Source of the DNA: Clostridiales bacterium
Lineage (GTDB): Bacteria; Bacillota; Clostridia; Lachnospirales; CAG-274
Reading direction: 5' to 3'
Assembly (NCBI GenBank): GCA_021201395.1
Contig: JAJQFB010000090.1
Coordinates: 1 to 43,418 of the forward strand
DNA length: 43,418 bases
Part shown: piece by piece, positions 12,899 to 43,418 of the stretch
Layout of the letters: each line of letters starts with the position of its first letter
How positions within the stretch are numbered: the first letter of the stretch is position 1
Notes under the pieces: generated by a model
What the model saw: the letters and a program-made list of their open reading frames with translations, nothing else
Databases searched by the model: none
Told to the model about the DNA's origin: nothing
Program-made: the position numbers and the translations under genes

Positions 12899-12972
12899 TA
12901 GCGGAAGGGGGATTTGAACCCTCGACACCACGGGTATGAACCGTGTGCTCTAGCCAACTGAGCTATTCCGCC
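12899..12972 (-). tRNA. tRNA-Met (CAT), elongator type
   Basis: 74-nt cloverleaf starting GGCGGAATAGCTCAG, anticodon loop TTCATAC (CAT), T arm GGGTTCAAATC. The acceptor stem pairs fully with one G-U at position 1-72 and discriminator A73; CCA is not encoded. A normal paired 1-72 end and resemblance to Bacillus elongator tRNA-Met argue against initiator type. Confidence 0.95.
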
Positions 12973-12976
12973 CCAG

Positions 12977-13049
12977 TGGGAACAATAGGGCTCGAACCTA
13001 TGACCTCCTGCTTGTAAGGCAGATGCTCTCCCAGCTGAGCTATGCTCCC
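12977..13049 (-). tRNA. tRNA-Val (TAC)
   Basis: 73-nt cloverleaf starting GGGAGCATAGCTCAG, anticodon loop CTTACAA (TAC), T arm AGGTTCGAGCC, acceptor GGGAGCA/TGTTCCC with discriminator A. It is transcribed first of the pair; four bases separate it from tRNA-Met. CCA is not encoded. Confidence 0.96.
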
Positions 13050-15223: not shown

Positions 15224-16704
15224 TTATTCCTCCCCTATATAGTGGGCGCCGAAGCTCTCTTTTCTGTTATAGGCTGCCTTGGCTATGAGCCAACCCGTAG
15301 TGAGCATATTGTAAATTTCAAGCTCGCCGTCTGTTACGCTTAAGGGATTTATTCTTCCGAAGTCCCTTTCATCGGGCATATAGCCCTCAAAAAATTCTAT
15401 AGCTTTCTTCATTTTCTCTTTCGTTCTTATGATTCCCACACAGTCCATCATAATCCTTTTAATCTTTCCCTTTTCGGGGAAAGGCCGTTTAGGCTCAAGA
15501 GTGGGAAATTCATATTCACAGGGCTTTAGCTCTCTGTTTGAGGAAATAATGTTATCGGCGGTAAGCCTGCCGAAAACAAGCCCCTCAAGGAGGGAGTTGC
15601 TGGCCAAACGGTTCGCCCCGTGGACGCCCGTACAGGCGGCTTCCCCTACGGCGTAAAGACCTTTTACGGTTGTTTCCCCCGTAGGCTTTGCCTTAACCCC
15701 TCCCATATGGAAATGGGCACCTGGGGCTACGGGGATTAGGTTTTTGCTTAAATCAAGACCGTTTGTTTCGCAGATTTCCGAAACATAGGGGAACCTTGTC
15801 TTAAAGTCGGATATTTCGGAAATATCAAGATAAATTTTCTCTCCGGCAAGGGTGTGCTTATAGACCGCCCTTGAAACAACATCTCTGGGGGCTAAGTCCT
15901 TAAGAGGGTGAACCCCCTCCATAATTTTTTTGCCCTTTTCATTTATAAGAATACCTCCGTCCCCTCTGACGGCTTCGGTTATAAGGCCGTAATTTTTGCC
16001 TCCGAAGGTCAGAAGAGTTGGGTGAAACTGTACAAACTCCATATTTTTAAGCTCTGCGCCGCACCTATACCCCAAAGCGGCACTGTCGCCGGTTATGGTA
16101 TGGTCGTTTGAGGTTCCCGGGTAGAGGTTGCCTATGCCCCCTGCCGCTAAAACTATGTATGGGGCGAAGTAGCTGTGATATTTTCCGTCGGCTGTTCTTG
16201 TTAAAACACCTGCGGCCTCTCCCCCGTTCATAATTATGTCTATAACAGGCTCGTTTTCGTGAAGCTCCGCCCTATCCGCCATATTTACATAGAGCTGTTC
16301 CATAACCTTAAGCCCTGTTCTGTCGCCTCCTGCGTGTATAACACGGGCAAGCTTGTGGGCGGCTTCCTTTCCGAAAGACAGAGAGCCGTCGGGATTTTTG
16401 TCAAAGTTCATTCCCCTGTCTATAAAATCTCTTATAACAGAGGGAGCCGTTTTGACAAGCTCAAGAGCTGCGGCCTTGTTGTTTAAGCCGTAGCCTGCCG
16501 TCAAGGTGTCCTCATAGTGGAACATATAGCTGTCGTCGTCTCTTAAGGCAACGGAAATTCCCCCCCCTGGGCAAGGGTTGAGTTACAGCTTCGTTTTTCT
16601 GATTTTGTAAGCATTATTACACTCTTACCATTATCGCAAAGCCGGCAGGCCACCGAATAGGCGGCTATGCCTGCTCCGATAATGATAACGTCTGTTGAAA
16701 TCAT
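15224..16704 (-). pseudogene. nadB: L-aspartate oxidase, frameshifted at a G8 tract
   Basis: Flavoprotein that oxidises L-aspartate to iminoaspartate for quinolinate synthesis. The true start is ATG 16704 with GGAGGAATTTAA upstream. The first frame gives the Rossmann FAD motif DVIIIGAGIAAYSVACRL and NSTLAQGG, then runs into TAA. The second frame resumes at ISVALRDDDSYMFHYEDTL and continues intact for over 430 residues (FAD/substrate blocks FVQFHPTLLTFGG, GANRLASNSLLEGLVFG). The break lies in eight G residues (plus-strand C at 16560-16567); six would restore AQGGISVA. No nadA is in the window. Either a real or phase-variable mutation, or a homopolymer error. Confidence 0.9.
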
Positions 16705-18344: not shown

Positions 18345-19727
18345 TTGCTGTACTACATAATTATTATACTGATGGTTATACTCAGGTTCCTGATTAAAAC
18401 CGTCTCTTCATCTATAAGCTTTTTGGAAGTCGGAAGGCTTGCTTACGATATAGAGGACGAAAAAATAAGGAAAAAAGTTGAGGTCTATAAAAATAAGGGC
18501 AGCTTCTATATTTCAGCCGCCAGTCTTATGAGTGTTATTATACTTCTCTTTTCGGGTATAATGACCTATGCCAATGTTATAAGTATATTCAGAACCTATC
18601 CGGAAATATTTTATACGGCAGGCACCCCCGGCACGGGAATTGCCCCTGCGGGCTATATTGCCTTTTTGGTTATTATAGTTATTCTTGCCTTTATATTCGC
18701 TCTTTTCAGCGGTACAATCCCCAGAAACATAGCCATTAAAAACCCCATATGGTATATTATTACTTTCGGTATCGTTTTAAAGGTTGCGTCCGTTCTGCTC
18801 TGTCCCCTTGTTAAAATAATATATAATATAAGCTTAAAGCTTTCAAAATATGACTTAGACCCGGACGATTTTGAAATAGAGGAGGATACTCAGGACGAAA
18901 TTCAGCAGCTTCTTACAACCGGCGAGGAAACGGGAACCATAGACGAAAACGAAAGGGAAATGATTGAAAATGTTTTCGCTATGGACGACACCGCGGCGGA
19001 GGATATTTTTACCCACAGAAAGGAAATTGTGGCTCTGCCCATAAGCTGTACCCTTGAGGATATTAAGAAAGTTATACTCTATAAAAAATATACGAGAATC
19101 CCCGTTTACGAGGATAATATAGACAACATTATAGGAATACTCAATACCAAAGAGTTTATGAGATATTATCTCAAAAGGACTCCCCGTTCGAAGTTTAATT
19201 TAAAGCGTCTTTTAAAGCCTACTTTTTTCGTTCCCACCAACAAAAAGATAGATGAAATTTTTGAACAGATGCAGGAGGAGAAGATTCACCTTGCGGTTGT
19301 GGTTGACGAATACGGCGGAACCTTAGGTATTGTCACAATGGAGGACATTGTGGAGGAAGTTATGGGGGACATTTTAGACGAATACGACGTAGACGAAATT
19401 CCCGACATAGACAAAAACTCCGACGGAACCTTTACAATAGACGGAACAGCCCTTTTGGAGGATGTTTCAGACGAGCTTGAAATCGAAGAGTTCGATGAGG
19501 AGGACGTTGACACCATAGGGGGCTATATGATAGCCCAAATGGGTTATATCCCCGAGGACGACGCCGAAAAGTTCAGTGTTGAATATGGCGGCTGGCTTTT
19601 TGAAACCGAAAAAATAGAGGGCAAAAGAATTGTATCAATAAAAGCGTCAAAAATATTGAGCAGGCCGGATAATCGCACCGATTCAGGTGAGGAAAGTCCG
19701 GGCTCCGCAGAGCAGGATGCCGGATAA
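18345..19727 (+). CDS. CNNM/CorC-HlyC family membrane protein with CBS pair
   Basis: 460 aa from a TTG with AGGAGG at 18331-18336. Residues 1-160: DUF21 domain with four hydrophobic segments (about 2-18, 54-76, 103-126, 135-158). A Q-E-E-x-L-like acidic linker (DEIQQLLTTGEETGTID) leads to a CBS pair (about 220-340; FTHRKEIVALP, VVDEYGGTLGIVTMEDIVEE) and a CorC_HlyC transporter-associated domain (about 355-440; DGTFTIDGTALLEDV, TIGGYMIAQMG). The family takes part in magnesium or other cation export. The last 25 residues are encoded by the 5' part of the RNase P RNA gene, so this C terminus (SRPDNRTDSGEESPG...) is unlikely to be under protein selection. Confidence 0.9.
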   Translation: MLYYIIIILMVILRFLIKTVSSSISFLEVGRLAYDIEDEKIRKKVEVYKNKGSFYISAASLMSVIILLFSGIMTYANVISIFRTYPEIFYTAGTPGTGIAPAGYIAFLVIIVILAFIFALFSGTIPRNIAIKNPIWYIITFGIVLKVASVLLCPLVKIIYNISLKLSKYDLDPDDFEIEEDTQDEIQQLLTTGEETGTIDENEREMIENVFAMDDTAAEDIFTHRKEIVALPISCTLEDIKKVILYKKYTRIPVYEDNIDNIIGILNTKEFMRYYLKRTPRSKFNLKRLLKPTFFVPTNKKIDEIFEQMQEEKIHLAVVVDEYGGTLGIVTMEDIVEEVMGDILDEYDVDEIPDIDKNSDGTFTIDGTALLEDVSDELEIEEFDEEDVDTIGGYMIAQMGYIPEDDAEKFSVEYGGWLFETEKIEGKRIVSIKASKILSRPDNRTDSGEESPGSAEQDAG

Positions 19728-20019
19728 TGTCCGGTGGAGGCGACTCTAAGGAAAGTGCAACAGAAATAAACCGCCTTTTTAAAAAGGTAAGGGTGGAAAG
19801 GTAAGGTAAGAGCTTACCGCTTTTTCGGCAACGAAAGAGGCTCTGTAAACCCCATTCGGAGCAAGATCGAAAAGAAACAGAGGGCTTTTGCCTAAGGCAG
19901 GGCTCTCAGGGGCTGCTCGTCCCGTTTCAGGTACAGATCGCTTTAGTTTATCGGTGACGATAATTCAAGACAGATGATTGTCCAAGACAGAACCCGGCTT
20001 ACAGACCTGCTCAATATTT
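19651..20019 (+). ncRNA. rnpB: RNase P RNA (class A)
   Basis: Catalytic RNA that cuts 5' leaders from pre-tRNAs. Conserved blocks: GAGGAAAGTCCGGGCTCC, GGTAAGGGTGGAAAGGT, GGTAAGAGCTTACCGC, AAACCCCATTCGGAGCAAG and ACAGAACCCGGCTTACAGACC. Helix P1 is a perfect 14-bp pairing of AAATATTGAGCAGG (19651-19664) with CCTGCTCAATATTT (20006-20019). It overlaps the 3' end of the upstream coding region by about 77 nt on the same strand, so it must be processed from, or independently initiated inside, that gene. Confidence 0.96.
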
Positions 20020-29216: not shown

Positions 29217-32200
29217 TCAGCCTGTATAGCTGTAGGAGCTGTTGAGAACCTTGCAAAGTATCTTAGCTGCGTCTGTTGCGTCAATATCTCCGCTTTCGTC
29301 TACGTCCGAAATGTTCCAGTCCTCTTTTGCTTCGCCTGTAAGAACATAGTGAAGCAGGCAGGCCGAGTCGTTTGCCGTAAGAACGCCGTTGTTGTCAACG
29401 TCTCCTGTTACGGAATCGTCATCGTCATCATCGTCATCATCATCAGAGGAGCCGCTTAAGGAATCGAAAAGTGCCTGACCCAATTCAGACCAGTATGTAT
29501 ATTCAACAAGGTTTTTGTCCTTTGCGGTAAATATTGTATCCTTGATTGTGAATATGTATTCGCCGCTTGTTTCCTCGCCGTATACGGTTACAGGCTGAAT
29601 AACATAGGGTGAAATCGTCATACCGGCGTCCTGTATAACCTTAGCGATTAAGCCGGCCTGAATAACGCCGCCGGTCTTGTTGCTGTGGGTTGAGTCGCCC
29701 GTGTCCATAAGAGCATAGCCGTATTCATCGCTGCCGCAGGCTTCGTAAGCCGCTTCGTAAAGGTCAACCGTAAGCTGGAAGCCGTCTATATAATAAACGT
29801 TGTTTCCTGCCGCAATATTTTCCTCATAAAGCTCTTCACAAGCCGTAACGTAAGCATTGTTTGTTGTGTAATAGTCAGCCGTAAGAGCATAGCTTGTTCC
29901 TGCGTCATGGTGTGTTCTTATTTTTCCGCTTGAGTAGTAAAGTCTTGAAACGGGAGAAACAATAACGGGAACCGCACCGACAGCCAAAGCCCTGTCTATA
30001 TATTCCTGCAAATACCCTTTATAGGTTGCGCCGCAGTCCCAGGAATAGGTTCCGTCTGAGGACTGCATATCCTCTGTAGGCTTGATGGTGGGGAAGCCGC
30101 TGCTTCTGTCGCTTGATGTGGGAAGGCTGTCCTGTGTATAGAGAGGAACGAACCTGTCCTCATAATAGGAGGCTCCGTTAGCGCAGTCATTGTGGCCGAA
30201 CTGCATGAAGAGATAATCTCCCTCTTTTATGCTTGCCATAATGGTGTCAAGCTTGCCCTCGTTAAGGAAAGAACGGGAAGCTCTTCCGCCCTGGGCATAA
30301 TCGATTACGGTTACATAGTCCTCATCAAAGAACTCCTGTAAAAATTCTCCCCAGGAGCCTGCGGACTGTGTAACGCCGCTGTTATACATACCTGCCGCAG
30401 AATAGTCCTTAACGGTTGAGTCTCCGGCAAGGTAGATGTTAATTCCGGTGCCGGGGGCAATACTTGACGGATTGTCGGGGTCTGTCCATGTGTCGCTTAC
30501 GGGATTTTCGTCAACAAGAACGTATCCTGCTTCGCCCTCAAGGCCGTAGTTTGTAATGGGAGTTACAACAACAAGGAGATAAAGCCCTGAACAGTCCGTG
30601 GGAATCTGATAGCTTGTTGTACTTGCTGCCGAGGTTGTATAGAGAAGTGCTGCGCTTTCAAGAATTGTATCAAGGCTCGCTGCGTCATAGCCCTCCGAAA
30701 CTCCGTACCATGAAATTCTCGAAGCGTCGCCGTCTTGGTCAAGCTCATAGCTTACCGTAACCGTTTCGCCGGGGTTGGGCTTATTTAAGTCGCCGTTTGA
30801 GGAAAGCGTAGGTGCCGCTGCAAAGGTCGGAGCTGTTGTTGAATCCGTCACATAATAGTAAGGTGTCCAGCCGTTTGCAATAAATACGCTTTCTACTGAA
30901 TAATCAGCTAAATCAACTGTATCAAGAACCTGAGCCTTAGCTGCTCTTCCGCTTGTGTCAACGGCTTCTCCGTCACAGGTTGTGTTGTATTCAACAAGCT
31001 GCGCCGTTTCGCTTGTGTCCGGATCGTTAGAGCCCATTGTCGTCCAGCCCTTTGCGGAAATCATATCAGCCTCCTGAAGCTGAGTATTTATAAAGGCAAC
31101 CGTTGCATGTGTTCCCCAAAGTCTGCCGAAAGTGCCGGCCGTTACGTCTCTTTCGCTGCTGTAGGAAACATAGCAGCTTCTGAAAATATAGCCGTCTGAA
31201 GCAGGGTAGTCTGCACTTGCCGACTGTGCTGTCAAATATCCCGAAGCTTCCGTTCCGTCATAGCCGCAGAAATTAATCTCGCAGCCGTCGAAAATAACGT
31301 CGCCGTTGCCGTAGATGAAGTCTGTCTGACCCTCAATGTAGCAGTTTCTGTAGTATGAGTCATAAGCTCTGTTGCAGGTGTAGAGTGTATCCTGACTGCC
31401 TATAAAGGCACACTGATTAAACTCAACCTGGTCTGCGTAGTTTACATAAGCCGCCGCTCTCTCTGTAGCCGCTCTTGTGTCTGCGTTTGTAGTTTCCTTT
31501 CTTACAACCGTTATGGACTGGAGGCCGTTTACCTCTACTCCGTCCTCAATTTCTTCATCGGTCATATATTTGTTAAAGGAATTTTCAAATTTAATATTTT
31601 CCGCTCTGAAGCCCGTTGCCGCACTTGATGTAATAACGGCGGAGCCCCAGTAGCTTACAACATCGCCTTTTTCAAATTGGTCATAGTCAGCGTAGGGGTC
31701 GTAAAGGCTGTTTACGCAGCTGTAATATTTATAGCCTATGCCGTAATACCATGTAATAACCGTGTCGTCGTATGTGCCGCCGTTGCTCTCGAGAGTTATG
31801 TTGGGGCTTGTTATGTAAAGCTGTTCACGGTAGGTTCCGGGGTCGATTTTTATAGTTACTCTTGCGTTATCCGTTCTCGTCATATTTGAAACGGCTTCTA
31901 TAGCGGAGCCTACGGACTCATAGTCCCTGCCCTCGCCTACATATAATGTGTCGGAATAAGCAACGCTCTTTGCCGTTTCGTCCTTTAAGAGAAGGTCTCT
32001 TGAAACAGCACTGCCGTCAACAACAACGTGGGTCGAGGTTGAATAGTCGGAGCTTGTAATAGAAGCAAGATAGGAGCCGTCTCTTAAGGAAACGCTGTAG
32101 CTGCCTGCGGAAGCTGTTCCCGAATAAACATAGCCATCATCTACATTTGTAAATGTAATAGCCGAGGGAGCAGCGCTCAAGGCTTCATATTCCCCTCTTA

Positions 32201-33386
32201 CCTGAGTAAGGCCTAAGAATCCGCCGCTTACAGGGTAGGTTGAAACAGCCGTAAGGGCTATGTCCTGAGTTACACCGCTGCCGCTGTCGTTTGTAACTGT
32301 GTAGGTTTGGCTCAGTTCATAGTCATAGGCTCCCTCAAGGGAAACCGTATAGGTTTCGTTTGCGGAAAGCTGAACGGAATAGGTTAAGGCCGTCTTGTCA
32401 ATTTCCGCACTTACTTCTTCAAAGCTTGTCAGATCGCTTGGTGTAAAAACAAGGCCTAAATCGCTTACGTCATAGCCATCGGCAAGGCCTGTAATGCTTC
32501 CCGCCGCATAGTAGGAAACACTTTCCTCTATCTCAAGGTCGGCGGTCTGTGTATGGTCGTCTGTGGCCGTAACGGAAACTGTCTTTGTGGCCGTGCTTAT
32601 TGCGTAGGATGTAGCATAACTTCCGTAAAGAGAAGCTATATAGTCATAGCCGGGCTTTAAAACAACGGTATAGCTCGTTCCGGAAACCTCGGCTTCCGTT
32701 GCCGTGCCTGTTGTTTTGTTTGTGAATCTTAAGTTATATTCGCTTAAGCCGTAGCTGTCGGAAATTGTTCCGCTTAAAGTTGTATAGGGAACAAAAGCCG
32801 CACCGTAATTTGTCATCTTTGAGCCTGTTACGGTAACATAATATGTATAGCCCTCTTCCGCTTCAACGTCTACGGTAATTATAGAGCCGGAGATAGCTGC
32901 GGCGTAGGTTTCTTCCTCAAGAGGAAGCTCGCTGCCGTCTGCTATAATGGTACAAATAGACTCGCTTGTGCTGTCTGAAAGAGATGTCCTGCTGACAACA
33001 ATAGTCTTTGTGTTGGCTGCGGTTCCTATATAAAGTGAAAGGGTACCGTCTGTCGCAGGTGTGTAATCGCAGTAAGATCTGCTGTCTGTTGTAACGATGC
33101 CGTTTGAGGCGGCGCCGTTTGTATTGTTGGATCTTACACCATAAAGACTTCCGCTTGTGGTGTATTCAACAATCTGGGTTGTGGGGCTGTAGTATGTGAA
33201 ATCGGAACCGTCCACGTCCATAACAGCCGTTCCGCTTGAGTTATCGTCTGCGTTTGTAATCGTCCAGTAGCCGTAGGTCGATGTCACATCGGCAAACACA
33301 GTCAAATTCAAAACGGAAAGAACCATCAAAACGGACAAAACAAGAGAAACTCCTCTCTTAAGCCCGTTTCTTTTAAAGCTTACCAT
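29217..33386 (-). CDS. Secreted pectin methylesterase-acetylesterase with dockerin (CE8-CE12-DocI)
   Basis: 1389 aa from ATG 33386 (GGAGGAATTTAATT upstream; an 81-bp in-frame extension would run through the promoter region). Signal peptide 1-33. N-terminal beta-sandwich and regulatory-like repeats (35-470). CE8 beta-helix (about 475-860) with SQDTLYT (663), GQTDFIYG (683) and GRLWG (754). CE12 SGNH domain (about 980-1250) with complete blocks AGDSTVKDY (987), FGHND (1064) and DSTH (1230). Asp-rich linker (about 1312-1324), then a type I dockerin (1325-1385) with two calcium loops, DVDNNGVLTANDSA and DVDESGDIDATDAA. It would strip methyl and acetyl esters from pectin and dock on a cohesin scaffold. 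Confidence 0.93.
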   Translation of the reverse strand: MVSFKRNGLKRGVSLVLSVLMVLSVLNLTVFADVTSTYGYWTITNADDNSSGTAVMDVDGSDFTYYSPTTQIVEYTTSGSLYGVRSNNTNGAASNGIVTTDSRSYCDYTPATDGTLSLYIGTAANTKTIVVSRTSLSDSTSESICTIIADGSELPLEEETYAAAISGSIITVDVEAEEGYTYYVTVTGSKMTNYGAAFVPYTTLSGTISDSYGLSEYNLRFTNKTTGTATEAEVSGTSYTVVLKPGYDYIASLYGSYATSYAISTATKTVSVTATDDHTQTADLEIEESVSYYAAGSITGLADGYDVSDLGLVFTPSDLTSFEEVSAEIDKTALTYSVQLSANETYTVSLEGAYDYELSQTYTVTNDSGSGVTQDIALTAVSTYPVSGGFLGLTQVRGEYEALSAAPSAITFTNVDDGYVYSGTASAGSYSVSLRDGSYLASITSSDYSTSTHVVVDGSAVSRDLLLKDETAKSVAYSDTLYVGEGRDYESVGSAIEAVSNMTRTDNARVTIKIDPGTYREQLYITSPNITLESNGGTYDDTVITWYYGIGYKYYSCVNSLYDPYADYDQFEKGDVVSYWGSAVITSSAATGFRAENIKFENSFNKYMTDEEIEDGVEVNGLQSITVVRKETTNADTRAATERAAAYVNYADQVEFNQCAFIGSQDTLYTCNRAYDSYYRNCYIEGQTDFIYGNGDVIFDGCEINFCGYDGTEASGYLTAQSASADYPASDGYIFRSCYVSYSSERDVTAGTFGRLWGTHATVAFINTQLQEADMISAKGWTTMGSNDPDTSETAQLVEYNTTCDGEAVDTSGRAAKAQVLDTVDLADYSVESVFIANGWTPYYYVTDSTTAPTFAAAPTLSSNGDLNKPNPGETVTVSYELDQDGDASRISWYGVSEGYDAASLDTILESAALLYTTSAASTTSYQIPTDCSGLYLLVVVTPITNYGLEGEAGYVLVDENPVSDTWTDPDNPSSIAPGTGINIYLAGDSTVKDYSAAGMYNSGVTQSAGSWGEFLQEFFDEDYVTVIDYAQGGRASRSFLNEGKLDTIMASIKEGDYLFMQFGHNDCANGASYYEDRFVPLYTQDSLPTSSDRSSGFPTIKPTEDMQSSDGTYSWDCGATYKGYLQEYIDRALAVGAVPVIVSPVSRLYYSSGKIRTHHDAGTSYALTADYYTTNNAYVTACEELYEENIAAGNNVYYIDGFQLTVDLYEAAYEACGSDEYGYALMDTGDSTHSNKTGGVIQAGLIAKVIQDAGMTISPYVIQPVTVYGEETSGEYIFTIKDTIFTAKDKNLVEYTYWSELGQALFDSLSGSSDDDDDDDDDDSVTGDVDNNGVLTANDSACLLHYVLTGEAKEDWNISDVDESGDIDATDAAKILCKVLNSSYSYTG

Positions 33387-33668
33387 AATTAAATTCCTCC
33401 TTACTTTTATATCATAATATATTATAATGATATACCTTATAATTTTTGCACAAAAACGGCAAATCAAAAAGGCCTATATAGGTTATTTTACACCATTTCT
33501 CTTTTTTTGTAAAGCCCCTGTTTGTTAATTTTTGAGAAGTTTGAATTGTCCGCTGTGATTTCAGCGGCCGGCTGCCGGCGTTGTCAAGGGCAAAGCGGAA
33601 ATTTTCTCAGAAAAATCCTCTGCAATTTCACCAAAATTTCATTTGTTTTTTTTAGCAATTTTTACAAA

Positions 33669-35075: not shown

Positions 35076-35128
35076 AAAAAAACCGAGCCCCTTATGATTC
35101 GTATGAACCGTATCGGGGCCGTTTTTTT
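35076..35128. terminator. Bidirectional terminator between permease and heme operon
   Basis: A-rich tract, ACCGAGCCCC, 23-nt loop, CGGGGCCG and a seven-T run. The GCCCC/GGGGC core is paired and there are T runs on both strands, placed between two convergent genes. Confidence 0.7.
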
Positions 35129-35888
35129 ATACCGTTATTACAAAGCGTCTGTTGTTAAATTTTTCTATGGCAAGCTCAAGGCCGTAAGTTTCCTTTATTG
35201 TTTCCGTTGTTATAACCTCTTTCGGCTCGCCGTATTTTATGATTCTGCCCTCTTTCATAGCCACAATTCTGTCGCTGTAATAGGCGGCCTGATTTATGTC
35301 GTGGAGAACCATTATTATTGTTATGTGATATTCCCTGTTGAGTCTTTTAATAAGGCGGAGAGTTTCAATCTGGTGTTTAATGTCAAGATAGGTTGTCATT
35401 TCGTCCAAAAGTAGGATTTTGGTGTTCTGGGCCAAGGCCATAGCTATCCATACTCTCTGGCGTTCGCCGCCGGAAAGGTTTGCTATTCTCTTTTTGCGGA
35501 ATTTCTCTATTCCCGTAGCCTCAAGGGCAAAATTTATACACCTTTCGTCCTCGTTGCGGTCTCTTTTTAAGCCGTTTGCGTGGGCAATTCTGCCGTAGCT
35601 TATAAGCTTTTCCACCTTTAAATCTCCCGGGGCTGTGTTATGCTGGTGAACAATGGCAAGCTCCCTTGCGAAGCGTTTTAAGGGAATTTTGTCTATATCC
35701 TCCCCGTTAAGAGTTATAATACCCTTTTGGGGCTTTAAATTTTTGGACATTACATTAAATAAGGTGGATTTTCCTCAGCCGTTTGCCCCTATTATGGTTG
35801 TTATTTTGTCCCTTTCCACCTTAAAGGAGATATCGTTAAGCACCTTTCTTGTGTTGTCGTATCCGAAATCAACGCCTTTAATTTCCAT
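35127..35888 (-). pseudogene. Heme/iron ABC transporter ATPase with TGA in Walker A
   Basis: FecE/HtsC-type ATPase that would power heme import. ATG 35888 overlaps the permease end by 11 bp. The frame gives MEIKGVDFGYDN and TTIIGANG, then TGA at codon 38 (35775-35777), then GKSTLFNVMSKN and the rest intact: Q-loop VHQHNT, signature NLSGGERQR, Walker B ILLLDEM, switch His in VLHDINQA. The family has Cys, Ser or another residue at the TGA site (GANGxGKST). Translation restarting downstream would lack Walker A and be inactive. About 253 codons in all. Confidence 0.88.
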
Positions 35889-36865
35889 AGGTCTTATCAC
35901 TCCTTTTAAGAAGAATAATAAAGAAGGGTCCGCCTGCGACAGCCATAATTACCGCCGGGGAAATTTCGTAGGGGTAGGCTATGAGCCGCCCCACAGTATC
36001 CGCAAGAAGCATTGTAAAGGCACCCAAAAGGGCTGAAAAGGGAATTAAAAGCCTGTGTTCGCTTCCCACGAGGATTCTGCCCATATGGGGAACAATAAGC
36101 CCCACAAAGCTGACAGCTCCGGCTACGGCTGTTGTTATGGAGGCCAAAAGCACAGCCACCACCGACACAACAAGCCTTAAAGCTGTTACGTTTACGCCAA
36201 GACTTCTGACGGTTTTGTCCTCAAGGGACAACAGATTGCACCTGCCGGCAATAACAAGAGCCAAAACAAGACCTATAATAACATATATGGCAAGAAGCCT
36301 TACGTCCGACCATGTTTTCATAGATATGTTTGCCTCTATAAGCTCCGAAGCACTTGTATAGCTTTGACCGCTCATAGAATTAAAGGCACTTGAAAGACCC
36401 GAAAAAACAGCGTCTATAGCCACGCCCACAAGAATAATTCTAAGGGGCGAAAAGCCGTTTTTATAGGAAAGGCTGTAAACAAGAACGCAGGCCGCCATAC
36501 CGCCCATAAATGAAAACACGGGGGTAAAGAAGAAAAGCGTGGGAAAATAGGCTACTATAAGGGCGCTGACGAAGCTTGCGCCGGAGGATATACCTATTAT
36601 GCCCGGGTCCGCAAGGGGGTTTTTCAAAACCGCCTGAAAAAGAACGCCGCTGACCGCCAAAGCCGCCCCTGCAAGCATAGCTATTATAATTCTGGGGAAT
36701 CTTAAGTCGTAAATTATAGCCACAGTATCGTCATAGGCCACAAAAAGCCCTCTGAAAAAGCTGACCGTAGCTGACTTTAAGGCTTCCCGAATTGACGGAA
36801 AATATAAACAGCCCCCAAAGCAAAACAATAATTACAACAAAGCTTATAATTTTTTTACCCTTCAT
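35878..36865 (-). pseudogene. FecCD-type heme permease with one-base frameshift
   Basis: Membrane subunit of the heme transporter. The true start is ATG 36865, two bases after the lipoprotein stop. The first frame (MKGKKIISFVVIIVLLWGLF...SLKVSYGQLF) is the first membrane helix, then it leaves frame in a run of five T (plus-strand A at 36755-36759) and stops at TGA. Removing one T joins it to RGLFVAYDDTVAIIYDLRFPRI and the remaining eight or so helices, including PLADPGIIGISSGASF and AGAVSFVGLIVPH, the classic FecCD loops. Otherwise full length (about 328 aa). Confidence 0.88.
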
Positions 36866-36867
36866 AA

Positions 36868-37962
36868 TCAGTCACCGTAAAGCATTGGCTCTAAAGCCGC
36901 CAAAGCCTGAGGATAGTCAAAGGTTGCGCTCATACCGAAAAGCATATAGTCAACGTCGTAAACCTTTCCTTCCGAAACGGCTCTGAAATGCTTCCATATA
37001 TCGTTTTCGGAAAATTCCTTTTCAGACATTTCAAGAGCCTCTTTAGGCAGACCGTGGGCCGTTCTTATAATAACGTCAGGGTCTCTCGCAAGCATTTCCT
37101 CAGGGCCGATTGTAAGAAAGTCCTTTTCCTCGTCACTGAAAACGTTTACTCCCCCTGCTAATTCCACAAGAGAGCCTGCGTAGGAGTTGCCCGTCGCCAC
37201 AAGATAGCTTCCCGGCAGACCCATAAGAACCAAAACCTTGGGGGCTTCCCCTGTGTGCTTGCTTGAATAGCTTGACATAAATTCGTTATATTCGGCCACT
37301 ATAGCCGCCGCTTCCTCCGACTTTCCGTATTTGTCCCCTATGAGCTGAACGCTGTCATAGAGACCCTTTACGGAGCGGAGATTTAAGAAGGTATAGTTTA
37401 CGCCCATGTTCTCATACTGAACCTTAAGGTCTGTTTCGAGAGTGTCGGGGCTTAAAACGTCTGTGGGGTTTAAGCTCTTTATAATTTCAACGTCGGGAGA
37501 CATAGGAGAGCCAACAGTTGTAACTCCGTTATAGCGTGAAGCTATGGCCGTTACGGTGGTTTCGGGAACGCCTACAAGGCTTAAACCCAGTCTGTCTGTA
37601 ATATCGCAGATAGAGGCCGAGGTCGCTATTATTCTCGTACCCTCAGGGGCAGTGGTTTCCGCGGGCTTATCTGCGTTTGCTGCGGCTTGGCTGTTGGCCT
37701 GCTTTTCTCCGCTTTCCGCTTTCGCCATTATGTCGGAATCAACCTCTTCTCCCGATGAACCCGAGGCCGTTGTTTCCTCCGCCTCTGCTTCAGTGCTTTC
37801 CGTTTCGCCATCAAGGGTTTCGTCCTCCGAAGCCTTGTCATCTTCCGCTTCCGTTGTTTCCTCTGTTTCACTTTCGGGGGCGTTTTTGGAGCTTGAAGCA
37901 CAGCCCGCAAAGAGAGCTATAGCTAAAACAACAAGTGTCAGTAAAAATAATTTCTTTTTCAA
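36868..37962 (-). CDS. isdE: Heme-binding lipoprotein of ABC importer (IsdE/HtsA-like)
   Basis: 364 aa, type III solute-binding fold. Lipobox ALFAGC with Cys21, then an 85-residue Glu/Thr/Ala-rich spacer. From residue 109 it follows staphylococcal IsdE closely: IIATSASICDITDRLGL, VGSPMSPDVEIIKSLNPTDV, VLVLMGLPGSYLVATGNSY, FSENDIWKHFRAV and LFGMSATFDY. The two axial heme ligands known for IsdE/HtsA, Met and His, align with Met154 (MSPD) and His303 (AHGLP). It receives heme at the outer membrane face and passes it to the permease. Twelve bp after the Shp-like gene. Confidence 0.92.
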   Translation of the reverse strand: MKKKLFLLTLVVLAIALFAGCASSSKNAPESETEETTEAEDDKASEDETLDGETESTEAEAEETTASGSSGEEVDSDIMAKAESGEKQANSQAAANADKPAETTAPEGTRIIATSASICDITDRLGLSLVGVPETTVTAIASRYNGVTTVGSPMSPDVEIIKSLNPTDVLSPDTLETDLKVQYENMGVNYTFLNLRSVKGLYDSVQLIGDKYGKSEEAAAIVAEYNEFMSSYSSKHTGEAPKVLVLMGLPGSYLVATGNSYAGSLVELAGGVNVFSDEEKDFLTIGPEEMLARDPDVIIRTAHGLPKEALEMSEKEFSENDIWKHFRAVSEGKVYDVDYMLFGMSATFDYPQALAALEPMLYGD

Positions 37963-37974
37963 GCCCTCTCCCCC

Positions 37975-39087
37975 TTAATTTCCGTAATATTCCGTATAGT
38001 TGCAGAGCATAGAAGCTACGTCCGCCCTCGTTGCGCTTGAGGTATAGTCATAGCCGTTTGTGTTCTGCTTTGTTATTATGCCGGCCTTTCCTGCCGAAAC
38101 AACGCTTTCCTCAGCCCATGAGCTTACGCCTGTTGTACCGGGGGAAATGCTCTTTGTTTCAAAGCTGACACCCTTATAAGCCGCATATTTTACGAGAATA
38201 ACCGCCGCCTGTTCACAAGTAACCGCCGTGTCGGGGCTGAAAAGGCCGTTTCCCGTTCCGTTTACTATGCCGTTTGCGTTAGCCCAGGCTATATAGGGGG
38301 CGTAGTACATAGAATTGTCAACGTCCGTAAATTCCGCCGTGCCGGAGATTTCCTCGCCGCTCATTCTGCCTAAAACAGTAACGAACATACCTCTTGTCAT
38401 ACTGTTCTCGGGGCTGAATGTGTCGGCTGAGGTTCCGCTGAAAAGACCTGAGTCAACAGCTTTTATAATTTCGCTTTCCGCCCAGTGGCCGTCAATATCC
38501 GTAAAGGCCGCCGCTGCACTGTCGTTTGTTTCCTCTGTTTCTTCTGCTTCCGCCTCTGTCTGTGTGTCCTCTGCTTCTGTTTCGTCAAGGCTTGTGCCTG
38601 AAACGGCTGTTGACATATCACAGTTCATATAGAAGCAGACGTCTCTGCCCATAGGAGCAACATACATTGTTATTCTTATATAGCTGTCCCCTGCCGGGGC
38701 AGAAAACCTAAGGTCTGCGCTGTCTGTTGAGGAGCTTTCCTTTATAACATTATATGAAACGTCCGAATAGCTTCCTCCCGGCTCGTCCTGTACGGCAAGC
38801 CTTATGTCGGATAAATTGCTGTAAAGGAGCATACGCATTGTTATAATAACTCCCTCATCTGTTTCTTCTATAACGGCCTTTTCATAAACCGCACTTCTGC
38901 ACATTCCCTCGCCTAACTCTGCATTTGCTGTTCCGCCGTCGTCTGTCTCCCCTGTGTCGGGGTTTAAATAACTCGTCACCGTGTCGGCCACATAGCTTTC
39001 CGCCCCTAAGGCAGTCACGCCGAAAATTCCCAAAACAAGGCTTAAGGCCGTTGCCGCCGCTATAATTCTTTTCGATAAATTCTTCAT
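37975..39087 (-). CDS. SLH-anchored Shp-like heme-binding surface protein
   Basis: 370 aa. Signal peptide 1-29. Residues 35-165 resemble the streptococcal Shp heme-binding domain: YLNPDTGETDDGGT, GEGMCRSAVYEKA, SNLSDIRLAVQ and MYVAPMGRDVCFYMN. Shp binds heme through two methionines; Met62 and Met146 lie in the matching segments. An acidic linker is followed by three SLH repeats (about 196-368; AFTDIDGHWAESEI, FTDVDNSMYYAPYIAWA, GVSSWAEESV) that tether it to the cell wall polymer. Position between receptor and IsdE-like lipoprotein supports a heme-relay role. The Shp assignment is from motif memory, not a search. Confidence 0.75.
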   Translation of the reverse strand: MKNLSKRIIAAATALSLVLGIFGVTALGAESYVADTVTSYLNPDTGETDDGGTANAELGEGMCRSAVYEKAVIEETDEGVIITMRMLLYSNLSDIRLAVQDEPGGSYSDVSYNVIKESSSTDSADLRFSAPAGDSYIRITMYVAPMGRDVCFYMNCDMSTAVSGTSLDETEAEDTQTEAEAEETEETNDSAAAAFTDIDGHWAESEIIKAVDSGLFSGTSADTFSPENSMTRGMFVTVLGRMSGEEISGTAEFTDVDNSMYYAPYIAWANANGIVNGTGNGLFSPDTAVTCEQAAVILVKYAAYKGVSFETKSISPGTTGVSSWAEESVVSAGKAGIITKQNTNGYDYTSSATRADVASMLCNYTEYYGN

Positions 39088-39117
39088 AAAAACCTTACTC
39101 CTTTCAAAAACGGAATG

Positions 39118-39142
39118 AGGGAAGGCAGATTTTGCCCTCCCT
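39118..39142 (-). other. Intercistronic hairpin
   Basis: AGGGAGGGCA-AAATC-TGCCTTCCCT on the minus strand, a 10-bp stem with one G-U pair, between the receptor and Shp-like genes. No T tract follows, so it looks like an mRNA-stability or attenuation hairpin rather than a full terminator. Confidence 0.5.
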
Positions 39143-39164
39143 AATTCTTATATTTTACTTACTT

Positions 39165-42100
39165 TTAAGCCTCAGCTTCTTCTGTGTCGGTTTCAGCCTC
39201 TTCTTCGGTTTCTTCCTCGGAATTCTCTTCTTCGGAAGTCTCTTCTTCATCGCTTTCGGAAGCCTCGGCTTCTTCCTCATCGTCCTCCGCTGTTCCTGCT
39301 GCTTCGGCTGCCGCTTCTTCTAAGGCTTCAAGCTTTTCGGGCATATATTCGCCTGTAAAGTTTACAAGCACAGTGGCAATCTCGGCTCTTGTGGCTGTTC
39401 CCTTGGGGTCAAAGCCGCCGTCGGTTCTGCCGTTTATAACGCCTGCCGCCGCAAGTCTGTCTACGCCGTCCTTAGCCCGGCTTCCTATATTGGCTTCGTC
39501 GTTAAATGAGGGCTTGTAAACCGTCTTAAATTCAACTCCCATACTGTCTGCAAGTCTCGTGATTATAGCCGCCATCTGCTCTCTCGTTATATTTTCATAG
39601 GGAGCAAACTCGGTTTCGCTCATACCTGCTACAACGCCGTTGTTATAAGCCCAAACAACATAGGGGTAGAAGTAGTCGTCGCTGTTTACATCCTCAAAGC
39701 CCGTTTCGCCGGATGTTGTTTCACTAACGTCCATAAGTCTGCCTAAAACAGTTACAAACATAGCTCTTGTGGCTGAAACGTTGGGACCGAACTGTGTATC
39801 GGTCATTCCGTTAAACAAGCCGAGTTCAAGGGCTTTAATAATGCTTTCTTCCGCCCAGTGGCCTGAAATGTCCTCAAAGCCCATAATGGAAATAACTTCA
39901 TCAGCCGCTTCTTCAAGGTCTATTTCTTCGACAACTTCTTCTGCCGTTTCGCCTGTTACGGCTATGGCAAAAAGCCCGAATTCCTTTACGGCAATTACAT
40001 AATAGGCCTTGTCGTCGGAAAGAGTATATTCAATCTCAGTCTTTGAGCCGTCATCGTTTATTCTGTAAATAGTGACGTCCTTGCCCTTTGTATCGCCTAC
40101 GGGGAAATAAACCGTAGCCGTTCCCGAAGGCTCTACCTCAACGGAGCCTAAAACCGCCTTTATGCTGTAAAGTATAAAGCTTGCTGCCTCATCGCCTAAG
40201 GCCGTCTCTGTGTTGTCGTAAGACTCGCCCTCGGTTATGATCTCAATCTCAAATTCCGTTCCGTCGTCGAATACATATTCGTCTGCATAAATCTTAACAC
40301 ACGTATCTGTATTCGTAGAGCTTACGGAGCTTCCGCCGGAACTTGAGCTTCCCGATTTAACCGTGGAATCCTGTGTCAGGGTTGCGTCGCTGTCGGCTTC
40401 TGTCATACCCGAGAAGTTAAGCTTAAGCCTTGCTGCAATCCAGCCGCCGGTATTTTCTGTTATACCGTCCATAGGCGTATAGGGTACGCTGATTTCAACG
40501 TCTGCATATTCTGTAGTCAGGTCTGAGATTTCAAATGAAAACATTGTTACGTATGTAAAGGTATGCTCTGAGCCGTCATATTTGGTGTTTGTTGTAAATT
40601 TGTCGGTAGAGAGATAGCTTATTGAAACCTCATCGCTCTGAATGCCCTGTAAAGTTGAGGTGTATCCGCTTACGGAAACGGGGTTTGTAGCAACCTGAAC
40701 GGTGGCTGTTCCTCCGCTTACTGTTACAAGGGCTTCCCTGTTGTTTGCAAAGGCTGCGTCTCCCATAGAAGCCTGGTCAAGGTTTGCGTTCCAGAGATAA
40801 ATATCCATCCAATACTTGCCGTCTGCAATATCGTCGTCATCATCGCCGCTGCTGCTTGATGAAACCGCCGTAAATCTTATGTCGGCGGAGCTTACTGCCG
40901 AAGAAACACCGTCCTTAATCGCCACAGCATATACCGTTATTGTTTCGCTTGAGCCCGTTACGGTAAATTCGCCGCTGTAGGCATTGGAGCTTTCAGAGGG
41001 AACAGAACCGTCTGTTGTGTAGTAAATTGCCGCTCCGTCCTCAGCCGTAATCGTTACGGTTACCGTCTGATTGTTCTTGGGAGATGAATCGGAAAGTGTA
41101 ATTACAGGCGAGTCTGTTTCTTCCTCGTCGTCTGCGTCCTCGATAATTACTGCGTTTGCCCAGTCAAACTCAAGTCTTGCGGCCTGATCGAAGCCTTCCA
41201 TAGCGTCTGAGCTTATGCGGATGTAAATAACGTCCTCCTGTTCCGAATCCCTGCTCATTCTGAAAATTCTCGGAAATTCGGAAGTGGTTTCGTCGCCGCT
41301 TGTGTAGTTAAGACCGTAGTCTGTGAAATATTCAACTATATCAGCGGAAATTTCATATTCAGAATCATTCCACCAGTCATAATTCATTTCGCCGGCCTCG
41401 GGATAACTCCAAAGCTTTATTAAATGTCCGTAAAGACCGGCATAATATACAGCCTTAACCGTAAGCTCAACTGTACTTGAACCATTCTTAACCGTAACTA
41501 TGGCGTTGCCGTCAAGAGCGGCGTTGCCCATAGACTCGGAGCCTTGATTTACCTCGCTCATCATAACGACGGGAACGCTGTATACAACAGCCTCGGAATC
41601 ATCTTCAACCGCCGTCAGTGTGTCAACGTCTATGGCAAGCCTTACAATGTGGGTCATTGTTCCCACAGGCGTGTTTACAACAAGCCGAACATTTTCTATA
41701 TCGTCAACGTTTTCAAGCTCTACGGTTACATAATAATAGCCGTCCTCATCGGTTGATACTTCAAGGACTTCATAGGTTTCGCCGTCAAGTGCCTGAGAAA
41801 TATCCCCTATCATTGAATTTGTGTAGGCAAGCTTTACATAAGCCTTGCCGTCGGAAACAGTGATAGGAACATCTGTTGTTGTAAAGTAGTTTCCTGCACT
41901 TGAGGTTTCGTCCGAATCCTCCTTGAGGATAGAGATGTCTGCCGTATACTCGCCGTCATCAGCCTCTGTTACGTTTGTATCGTCATCGTCATCATCATCG
42001 CTGTTGTCATCGTCGCCGTCGTCAACCGCAAGAGAAAGAGCTGAAAGAACAGCTTCAACGATTGCGTCCGAGGAATGTGTTGCTCCGCTGACCCCGTCTA

Positions 42101-42929
42101 CAGCGTAAATCGCCGCTGCGTCCGTTGCCGAAAGACCCACAAGCTACTCGGAAAGCCCCTCAGCAGCCGATTCAAGCTTTGACTGTGAGGTCGTGTTTCC
42201 TGCCTCGCCCTCAACACTGACTGCGGTTATAACATCGTCCGCAACTGTCACCGTAACGGTAACATCATAGCCGAAAACAGCCACAGCAGCCGTGCCCGTG
42301 TAGGTGGTTTCGGTTGTTTCGCCGTCGTCAGTGTCATCGCTGCTGTCGTTTGCATAGTCAAAGGCCAAATAAGCATTTGTCGACATATCCATAACGGCAA
42401 TGTACATATTTACATATACTCCGTCATAGCTGTTATCCGGCAGGTCAAACTCGATTTCCGATATGTTTCCGTCGGAATTTTCCGTTCCGTCCGCTGCAAC
42501 AATGTCGCCCGAAGCCGAAGTCCCCTGATAAATTACCCAGTCGGAAGCCCAGCCCGTTATCGTACCCACGGTTACAGAGGTAAGCTCAATCTTAACCCTT
42601 GCCGTGCCGTCGTCGCTTACAATAAGCTGACCGCCCACAATACGGCTTGCCGCCATAGAGTCGTTCGCCGTGTTGCTCACGTTTTTAAGGGAAACGCCTA
42701 TGTCATAGGTTCCCGGTGCATAAGCAACACCGCTTGAGCCGAAAGAATATTCTGTTTCGTCCGCAAGCTCCGCAGAGACTGTCTCCGTTAAGGAAAGAGC
42801 ACTGTCGGAAGTCGCCGCTTCTTCAATATTTTCGGCCTTATCATTCGTTTCGGCCCATGCCCCTACGCTTAAGCAGGACGCCGCCATAACGGCGGAAAGT
42901 GCAGCCGAAAGAATCCTTTTAAACTTCAT
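39165..42929 (-). pseudogene. SLH-anchored multi-NEAT, FMN-binding surface receptor, interrupted by TAG
   Basis: Predicted heme receptor of 1254 codons from ATG 42929 (GGAGG upstream). Signal peptide 1-26; NEAT-like 1 (72-193); FMN-binding domain (about 210-305) with acceptor motif DGVSGAT (Thr284); acidic linker; NEAT-like 2 (323-438), 3 (449-593) and 4 (701-843); a chitobiase-type beta domain (607-688; AIYYTTDGSVPS); an unassigned beta domain (875-995); three SLH repeats (1017-1193); a Glu-rich tail. NEAT 1, 3 and 4 carry SMxxxA and a late Met (VMDM, DAMEG, TPMDG). Codon 262 is TAG (42144-42146) inside the FMN domain; frame and homology continue after it. Without suppression only NEAT 1 is secreted. 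Confidence 0.8.
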
Positions 42930-43005
42930 TCTTTTATCCTCCTGTCTTTATTAAATTATAAGTTGTTTATAAAATATCCTCCTTTCGGATATAAACAGAT
43001 TTTGA

Positions 43006-43019
43006 TTAGTTTAGGCTAA
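43006..43019. promoter_or_regulatory. DtxR/IdeR-like iron box 1
   Basis: TTAG-N6-CTAA core. The 19-mer starting at 43006 matches the IdeR/DtxR consensus TTAGGTTAGGCTAACCTAA at 16 of 19 positions. It lies about 80 bp upstream of the receptor ATG. Confidence 0.65.
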
Positions 43020-43072
43020 CTCAAATCCGAAAAAAATTACTGCCGCATACTTTAAAACCTGTAAATTATCAG

Positions 43073-43086
43073 TTAGTCAAGCCTAA
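43073..43086. promoter_or_regulatory. DtxR/IdeR-like iron box 2
   Basis: TTAGTCAAGCCTAA, same TTAG-N6-CTAA core, 13 of 19 to the IdeR/DtxR consensus. A TTGACT on the minus strand (43075-43080), a possible -35, lies within it. Confidence 0.55.
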
Positions 43087-43283
43087 CCAATTTCAAATTG
43101 CTCCCTTTATAAATATAAGGATCAATCTGCCCTCAAAGCTTTTGTTTGGGTTGAACCGTTCCTTAAGGTTAAATATATAATTATTAAAGGAGAACAACTT
43201 TAAGCCCGTCATACAGGTTAAAAAGCCTGTCGGCAGTAAAATGTTTTCAAGTCCGCCAAATTATCAGTCTCAGCTAACTTAAA

Positions 43284-43297
43284 TTAGCATTAGCTAA
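43284..43297. promoter_or_regulatory. DtxR/IdeR-like iron box 3
   Basis: TTAGCATTAGCTAA, same core, 13 of 19 to the consensus, with another GCTAA/TTAG pair at 43273-43287. It lies at or just after the expected start point of the minus-strand promoter at 43309-43337, a position suited to repression. Confidence 0.55.
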
Positions 43298-43308
43298 CCC
43301 ATAATTAA

Positions 43309-43337
43309 AGTATCATAAATTTTAATATTTGTCAAGG
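43309..43337 (-). promoter_or_regulatory. Candidate promoter of the heme operon
   Basis: Minus strand: -35 TTGACA (43332-43337), a perfect hexamer, with a weak -10 (TACTTT at 17 bp or GATACT at 15 bp). It would give a leader of about 370 nt. The 489 bp from 42930 to the window end contain no gene that I can support; a 39-codon frame beginning at ATG 43213 (minus) lacks a ribosome site. Confidence 0.4.
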
Positions 43338-43418
43338 CAATTTTTAAATTTTTTTATTTATTTTGAATCAATGTCATTTAGTTAACATAACAAGATGAAT
43401 AGCAAATTCTTCCATTTA

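Follow-up and report, generated by a model that had tools for sequence, protein, structure and literature searches.

NEAT domains are described as extracellular heme carriers. In Streptococcus pyogenes, heme is relayed from the surface receptor Shr, whose architecture comprises HID (hemoglobin-interacting) domains and leucine-rich repeats, to Shp and then to the HtsABC importer. The genes follow the order Shr-Shp-Hts, and the same order is found in the operon analysed here, which lies on a 43,418-nucleotide stretch (hereafter, the window; contig JAJQFB010000090.1 of assembly GCA_021201395.1) from a gut Clostridiales bacterium of the CAG-274 lineage. A first-pass annotation of this DNA, made without database searches, had pointed out the shared order and taken the locus for the clostridial counterpart of the streptococcal relay. 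The window does carry a heme-relay operon of a known kind, in a wall-anchored form that is damaged as assembled; its parts worth following are a flavin domain fused to the receptor and, in relatives, a regulator bearing a NEAT-like domain. More fully, we give a probability of about 0.75 to the reading of the locus as a Shr/Shp/Hts-type (Isd-type) operon for heme uptake with flavin-assisted hand-over of heme, iron control and, in relatives, heme sensing.

The heme ligands of the streptococcal proteins are Met66 and Met153 in Shp and Met79 and His229 in HtsA (PMC5026354). A Shp/HtsA-like pathway has been proposed earlier for ChtE and ChtA of Clostridium perfringens (PMC5026354). Like the window, the Cht locus (ChtD, ChtE, ChtA and Srt) combines a clostridial NEAT receptor with a Shp-like protein, ChtE, and an HtsA-like protein with a conserved Met/His pair, ChtA; it differs in encoding a sortase and in the LPQTG signal of ChtD, and the terms SLH and FMN (flavin mononucleotide) are absent from the main text of that paper (PMC5026354). 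A NEAT domain on an SLH-anchored protein is known from BslK of Bacillus anthracis, which has a single NEAT domain and for which the source drawn on here describes no SLH-anchored Shp partner (PMC4143258). The idea of a clostridial counterpart has precedents: the anchoring is partly precedented by BslK, and a Shp/Hts-like path in Clostridia is already known from the Cht locus.

Organisation of the operon

Five tightly ordered genes run along the minus strand from 42929 to 35127 and encode, in turn, a NEAT-SLH receptor, a Shp-SLH protein, an IsdE-type lipoprotein, a FecCD permease and an ABC ATPase. This gene order and domain content, as first annotated, are confirmed by Pfam and TIGRFAM matches above curated cut-offs. 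The span originally assigned to the genes reached 43337 and is not genic throughout, as coding begins at 42929 and the stretch 42930-43337 is upstream DNA. The receptor gene (42929-39165) is a single frame in two open pieces separated by an in-frame TAG; its NEAT, CHB_HEX_C_1 and SLH matches exceed the Pfam cut-offs, three SLH repeats are found in the Pfam scan, and the N-terminus resembles a signal peptide when judged by look. The Shp-SLH protein (37975..39087) belongs to the Shp family, with 144.9 bits for PF11545 against a cut-off of 26.4, and scores 86.9 bits for SLH. It is followed by the predicted IsdE-type heme-binding lipoprotein (36868..37962; TIGR03659, 343.9 bits against a cut-off of 298.65), by the permease gene (35878..36865), which is frameshifted near the N-terminus and reaches 273.4 bits for PF01032 in the frame 36828-35881, and by the ATPase gene (35127..35888), in which a TGA (35777-35775) falls inside the Walker A motif and the downstream piece gives 69.5 bits for PF00005. 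A search with the Shp profile returned 11 named loci, all from metagenome-assembled Clostridiales, Clostridia, Bacillota or Eubacteriaceae, one of them from roe deer rumen.

The ligand pairs that the first-pass annotation singled out in the Shp-like protein and the lipoprotein are borne out by comparison with solved structures. In the Shp-like protein, Met62 and Met146 align with methionines of Shp (2q7a); in the lipoprotein, Met154 and His303 are matched by a Met and a His of IsdE (2q8p; Lmo2184, 5joq, was also aligned). All four residues are invariant in the nine aligned sequences, i.e., those of the window and eight relatives. Gene content and predicted ligand positions thus fit a heme relay, as far as sequences can tell.

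A different ligand can nevertheless be envisaged. NEAT domains can bind other porphyrins, and the roe deer rumen origin of one relative would suit another tetrapyrrole of the herbivore gut in place of heme, for instance a porphyrin without metal or a product of chlorophyll degradation. Chlorophyll has also been mentioned as a possible nutrient (PMC4143258). However, the Met/Met and Met/His pairs, which ligate a metal, are conserved, and the lipoprotein scores above the IsdE equivalog cut-off, so that a ligand other than heme appears improbable.

NEAT-like domains of the receptor

The four NEAT-like domains earlier attributed to the receptor are a fair description, which is firm for the Pfam domain and for domain B, good for domain A and weaker for domain C. 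The Pfam NEAT domain (PF05031; 41619..41966, minus strand as all domains below) reaches 51.4 bits against a cut-off of 32.8. Domain B (residues 449-593; 41116..41588), which bears an SMG motif, is a NEAT domain both by sequence and by model: phmmer matches it to the solved streptococcal Shr chain 9w5y (E-value 7.7e-5), and its AlphaFold model aligns with IsdX1 at a Z-score of 12.9 and a root-mean-square deviation of 2.4 over 113 residues. In this model, domains B and C were folded together, with a predicted local distance difference test score (pLDDT) of 75.5 and a predicted template-modelling score (pTM) of 0.44. A Foldseek search with the two-domain model lists other folds at the top and IsdX2 NEAT5 at rank 21; for domain B, NEAT chains rank first in a structural aligner.

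Domain A (residues 72-193; 42321..42767), with an SMA motif, is recognised at the level of the family. Pfam NEAT is matched at an E-value of at most 1 in eight of the 11 aligned copies (best 3.1e-9), the window's own copy giving no match at that threshold, and the profile of the region aligns with that of domain B (hhalign, 90.6%). Domain C (residues 701-843; 40401..40823), again with an SMG motif, is related to domain B by the same kind of profile comparison (hhalign, 95.9%).

The likeness to Shr-Shp-HtsABC accordingly rests on a Shp domain with both ligand methionines, an HtsA/IsdE-type lipoprotein and one receptor domain that matches an Shr chain. The differences lie in the anchors, SLH domains in the window as opposed to C-terminal hydrophobic tails in streptococci, in the interrupted permease and ATPase genes, and in the receptor itself, which has an added FMN_bind domain and neither an HID nor a leucine-rich-repeat domain listed by Pfam. 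Indeed, a Pfam scan (E-value of at most 0.1) of this receptor and of the SLH receptors of five relatives lists neither. A relay with SLH anchors is the best reading of the locus, as had been proposed, but the architecture of Shr is not shared. The SLH domains had further been taken to let heme cross the S-layer. The domains are present and suggest anchoring to the wall; they do not indicate that an S-layer exists, and its crossing was a deduction.

An FMN_bind domain fused to NEAT

The first-pass annotation overlooked an FMN_bind domain (PF04205; 42036..42272, minus strand; 38.9 bits, cut-off 22), which sits between domain A and the Pfam NEAT domain and spans the TAG seen in the translation (42144..42146). 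Its SGAT motif fits [S/T]GA[S/T], the described flavinylation motif (PMC10979944). The window's own genome (G000, in 138 contigs; other G numbers denote comparison genomes) encodes one ApbE (PF02424, 282.4 bits, at G000:C119), and FMN_bind is matched twice more in it, in open reading frames 206 and 138 residues long. Domain, motif and ApbE are shared with the FMN_bind proteins flavinylated by ApbE; the difference is that here the domain is fused to NEAT in a heme operon, and NEAT is unmentioned in the main text of the corresponding study (PMC8238504).

Ten NEAT-positive genomes were found among the 61 searched, the window's own included, and in seven of them contig, position and frame length place FMN_bind and NEAT in one open frame. 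These are G000, where the frame is read through the TAG, and, with no stop in the match, G001, G002, G003, G004, G025 and G036. In a class-wide draw of 391 genomes, two (G447 and G137) of the 19 other NEAT-positive genomes (E-value of at most 1e-6) carry the fusion. An A-type NEAT-like domain directly precedes FMN_bind in G001, G002, G004, G025 and G036. Of the 11 FMN_bind copies that were read, six fit the flavinylation motif, namely those of the window and G036 and one copy in each of G001-G004.

Two variants concern attachment and context. At L037:9066-11981 (G025), the FMN_bind protein is encoded by a gene of its own and has four NEAT stretches, a dockerin match below the cut-off and no SLH; the dockerin match in place of SLH may point to a different mode of attachment to the surface. 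At L041:1843-5982 (G003), a pectinesterase protein carries an A-type NEAT-like stretch followed by what looks like a dockerin stretch; this frame reaches 36.1 bits for NEAT in the frame search, yet NEAT is unlisted in the whole-protein Pfam scan.

Links between flavinylation and iron assimilation have already been published (PMC8238504), and the legend of a supplementary table of 2014 lists FMN and SLH as additional features of proteins with NEAT domains (PMC4143258), from which the co-occurrence of NEAT and FMN seems to have been catalogued by then. A literature search found no paper combining the terms 'NEAT domain' and 'FMN-binding domain', and, to go by their titles and the openings of their abstracts, none of the matches listed dealt with a NEAT-flavin fusion or with a NEAT-domain regulator.

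FMN_bind proteins act in electron transfer outside the cytosol (PMC8238504, PMC10979944), and a protein of G002 brings together two FMN_bind and seven NEAT stretches. This could be taken to mean that the main role of the FMN_bind/NEAT surface protein is to conduct electrons outwards across the wall, through bound flavin and the heme of its NEAT domains, with heme uptake as a secondary role. However, the FMN_bind/NEAT gene stands beside the Shp, lipoprotein and importer genes in G001, G002, G025 and G036, which is a context of uptake, and G009 and G016 have the same operon without the fusion. A protein devoted mainly to electron transfer is thus hardly to be expected here.

Candidate iron boxes upstream of the receptor

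Upstream of the receptor gene lie three exact TTAG-N6-CTAA sites, at 43284..43297, 43073..43086 and 43006..43019. They are the only exact sites of the window, all within 43006-43297, and this clustering is unusual: when the 489-base upstream region is resampled 5000 times (first order), three sites are never reached. In the chosen relatives G036, G016, G025 and G167, three boxes are likewise found between the regulator described below and the next gene, with 0 or 1 box in the remainder of each locus (18-22 kb).

A stricter box, TTAGCNNNNGCTAA, was counted in 13 genomes against its reversed control. Boxes exceed controls in G000 (7:3), G001 (7:0), G002 (7:2), G004 (5:1), G016 (14:0), G036 (9:1), G028 (10:0) and G010 (2:0). 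In G000, five of the seven strict boxes lie between open reading frames and two inside them, one of the seven being in the window; one adjoins a flavodoxin-like gene, named from a look at the sequence. Two adjacent iron-box-like sites are seen upstream of the flavodoxin-like gene at L104:1974-2021 (G000). One strict box of G028, a genome with no NEAT match, lies between feoB-like and DtxR-like genes, named in the same way. The box was also considered as a private operator of the NEAT regulator, which is unsupported given the 10 boxes against 0 controls in the NEAT-less G028. We read TTAG-N6-CTAA as a putative general iron box that is not private to the heme operon.

A winged-helix/NEAT regulator in relatives

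In relatives, a gene adjoining the operon has a product of about 277 residues, in which a MarR/DtxR-like winged helix is joined to a C-terminal NEAT-like domain (L049:217-1047, L051:425-1249, L056:6667-7503, L058:2388-3245 and L097:7671-8534). The winged helix scores 36.9 and 43 bits for MarR_2 (cut-off 27) in G002 and G016 and 24.7 bits, below the cut-off, in G025; in the structural model (pLDDT 70.6, pTM 0.47), residues 1-93 align with MarR-family chains at Z-scores of up to 13.6. The C-terminal domain always remains below the Pfam NEAT cut-off of 32.8, being listed for eight of the 12 regulators scanned (best 29.9 bits) and not for those of G025, G304, G345 and G192. Its profile nevertheless finds seven PDB chains, of which five are NEAT (best E-value 2e-5) and one is an Shr chain (0.044), and the model aligns with IsdX2-NEAT5 at a Z-score of 12.3 and a root-mean-square deviation of 2.6 over 107 residues. 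Profile comparison with domain B of the receptor gives 77.6% in hhalign. Homology of this domain to Shp finds no support (hhalign probability 0.3%).

An order-wide draw of 392 genomes yielded 16 regulator matches. Ten are near full length (G001, G002, G003, G016, G025, G036, G167, G194, G276 and G304), with a TAA in G003 and one TGA each in G036, where it falls at the end of the frame, and in G304. Likely members are G374, G192 (no Pfam NEAT hit) and G009 (second Met not kept). G076 and G095, which have the winged-helix part only, and G345, of DtxR type and lacking the SMG motif, were dropped from the set, and G019 was left uncounted, its match being limited to residues 2-117. In an 11-row alignment, Met160 and Met257 are each present in 10 rows, the exception being the dropped G345; G009, outside this alignment, keeps the first Met only. 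The regulator lies near heme-receptor, lipoprotein or importer genes in G001, G002, G016, G025, G036, G167, G304 and G374.

These regulators share a MarR-like winged helix and the proximity to heme genes with the MarR-type heme sensors PefR and HsmR (PMC12670364) and differ from them by the separate C-terminal NEAT-like domain. The 2014 survey, in the part drawn on here, reports no cytosolic NEAT proteins (PMC4143258). From its domain composition, the winged-helix/NEAT protein is a possible cytoplasmic heme sensor.

A pair of exporter-type ABC half-transporters recurs near the regulator (L032:14662-18046, L097:3911-7292, L036:10880-14669 and L100:14-4927), sometimes with a small DUF454-like protein; Pfam scans cover the pair of L032 and, at L100, a fusion of DUF454 with an importer-type ATPase, and the rest was assigned by look. 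The pair is possibly a second heme or porphyrin transporter.

Proposed path of heme

Altogether, these findings lead to a model in which the wall-bound receptor would take heme through its four NEAT-like domains. By analogy with the streptococcal system, the SLH-anchored Shp protein would relay it through a Met/Met site, and the IsdE-type lipoprotein, through its Met/His site, would pass it on to the FecCD/ABC importer. The FMN_bind domain is probably flavinylated by ApbE, and the flavin could then give electrons to the heme of the neighbouring NEAT-like domain, easing hand-over under anaerobic conditions. Iron shortage probably turns the operon on via the three TTAG-N6-CTAA boxes, and in relatives the winged-helix/NEAT regulator probably adds heme sensing. 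In a bolder form of this model, the NEAT fold would be used on both sides of the membrane, with flavin-assisted heme reduction outside and, inside, a cytoplasmic Met/Met NEAT sensor that, as half of the winged-helix regulator, would read imported heme and control the operon. In our estimation, this combination is unlikely.

Several observations weigh against the reading of the locus as a flavin-assisted, iron-controlled heme-uptake operon. For domain C, the profile match to domain B stands beside a search against PDB sequences that gave no NEAT match. The fusion of FMN_bind to NEAT is missing in three of the 10 NEAT-positive genomes (G009, G010 and G016), and the flavin is therefore not essential to the relay. 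Five of the 11 FMN_bind copies depart from the flavinylation motif (TSAT in the first copies of G001-G004 and SSAT in the only copy of G025), which makes a redox-assisted relay with a NEAT sensor less probable. As to the boxes, three per window are not unusual (shuffle mean 1.22, with 11 of 100 shuffles reaching three), the stricter box shows no excess over its control in five of the 13 genomes (G005 1:3, G008 1:1, G009 3:3, G012 0:1 and G025 1:1), and seven of the eight boxes inspected in G028 lie inside open reading frames. Finally, as assembled, three of the five operon genes are interrupted, by the TAG of the receptor, the frameshift of the permease and the TGA of the ATPase.

Decay or assembly error

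The receptor, permease and ATPase genes thus differ from their description in the first-pass annotation. The ATG of the permease, at 36865, and the remainder of the gene are in different frames, residues 35-335 of a homologue aligning to 36783-35881 of the window, and uninterrupted ATPase homologues of G001, G002 and G004 align across the TGA. A working importer would need both of these genes uninterrupted; in the window, as assembled, both are broken. Uninterrupted versions exist in relatives, G001 and G002 for the permease and G002 and G036 for the receptor; other relatives are also broken, with the receptor in two frames in G001 and in several in G003. Nine other genes of the window (14.4-35 kb) were compared with homologues from relatives, and eight show no stop or frame change. 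At 15224-16525, a stop and a frame change are seen near the N-terminus relative to the G004 homologue, a possible further frameshift.

Recoding of stop codons was considered and rejected: an alternative code does not explain the interruptions because the lesions are mixed, comprising TAG, TGA and a frameshift, and because eight of the nine compared genes align cleanly. Selenocysteine at the TGA of the Walker A motif was likewise considered, on the sequence alone. Either real decay or assembly error may account for the window copy, because relatives are intact, the gene at 15224-16525 is also broken and the genome is in 138 contigs. Were the lesions real mutations, the operon would be a decaying relic in this organism, with a dead importer, while relatives keep it in working order. 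The density of lesions, three in the five operon genes where nine other genes of the window show one comparable break, speaks for such a relic, as does the adjoining regulator gene, for which the G000 assembly gives no full-length match. Yet the regulator gene would be expected beyond position 43418, the end of the contig, and the assembly is fragmented; the break at 15224-16525 suggests that there is a background level of assembly error, and the receptors of G001 and G003 show that operon genes are broken in some other assemblies too. Moreover, the Shp and lipoprotein genes are uninterrupted and their ligand residues conserved. A relic is a serious contender, though somewhat less probable than not.

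Neighbouring features

Adjoining the heme operon, the window encodes a large protein (29217-33467) with pectinesterase and dockerin matches above the cut-off and a weaker GDSL-lipase match. Further away are the class A RNase P RNA (19657-20017) and two tRNA genes, for Met and Val (12899-13049).

Conclusions

The locus extends the Shp/Hts relay to uncultured Clostridia with SLH-anchored surface proteins. A flavin domain beside NEAT would make the reduction of heme at the wall, before import, a testable idea, and a DNA-binding protein equipped with a NEAT domain would represent a heme sensor of a new type. If both hold true, these bacteria would combine a heme relay assisted by redox chemistry with a NEAT-based heme sensor in the cytoplasm.

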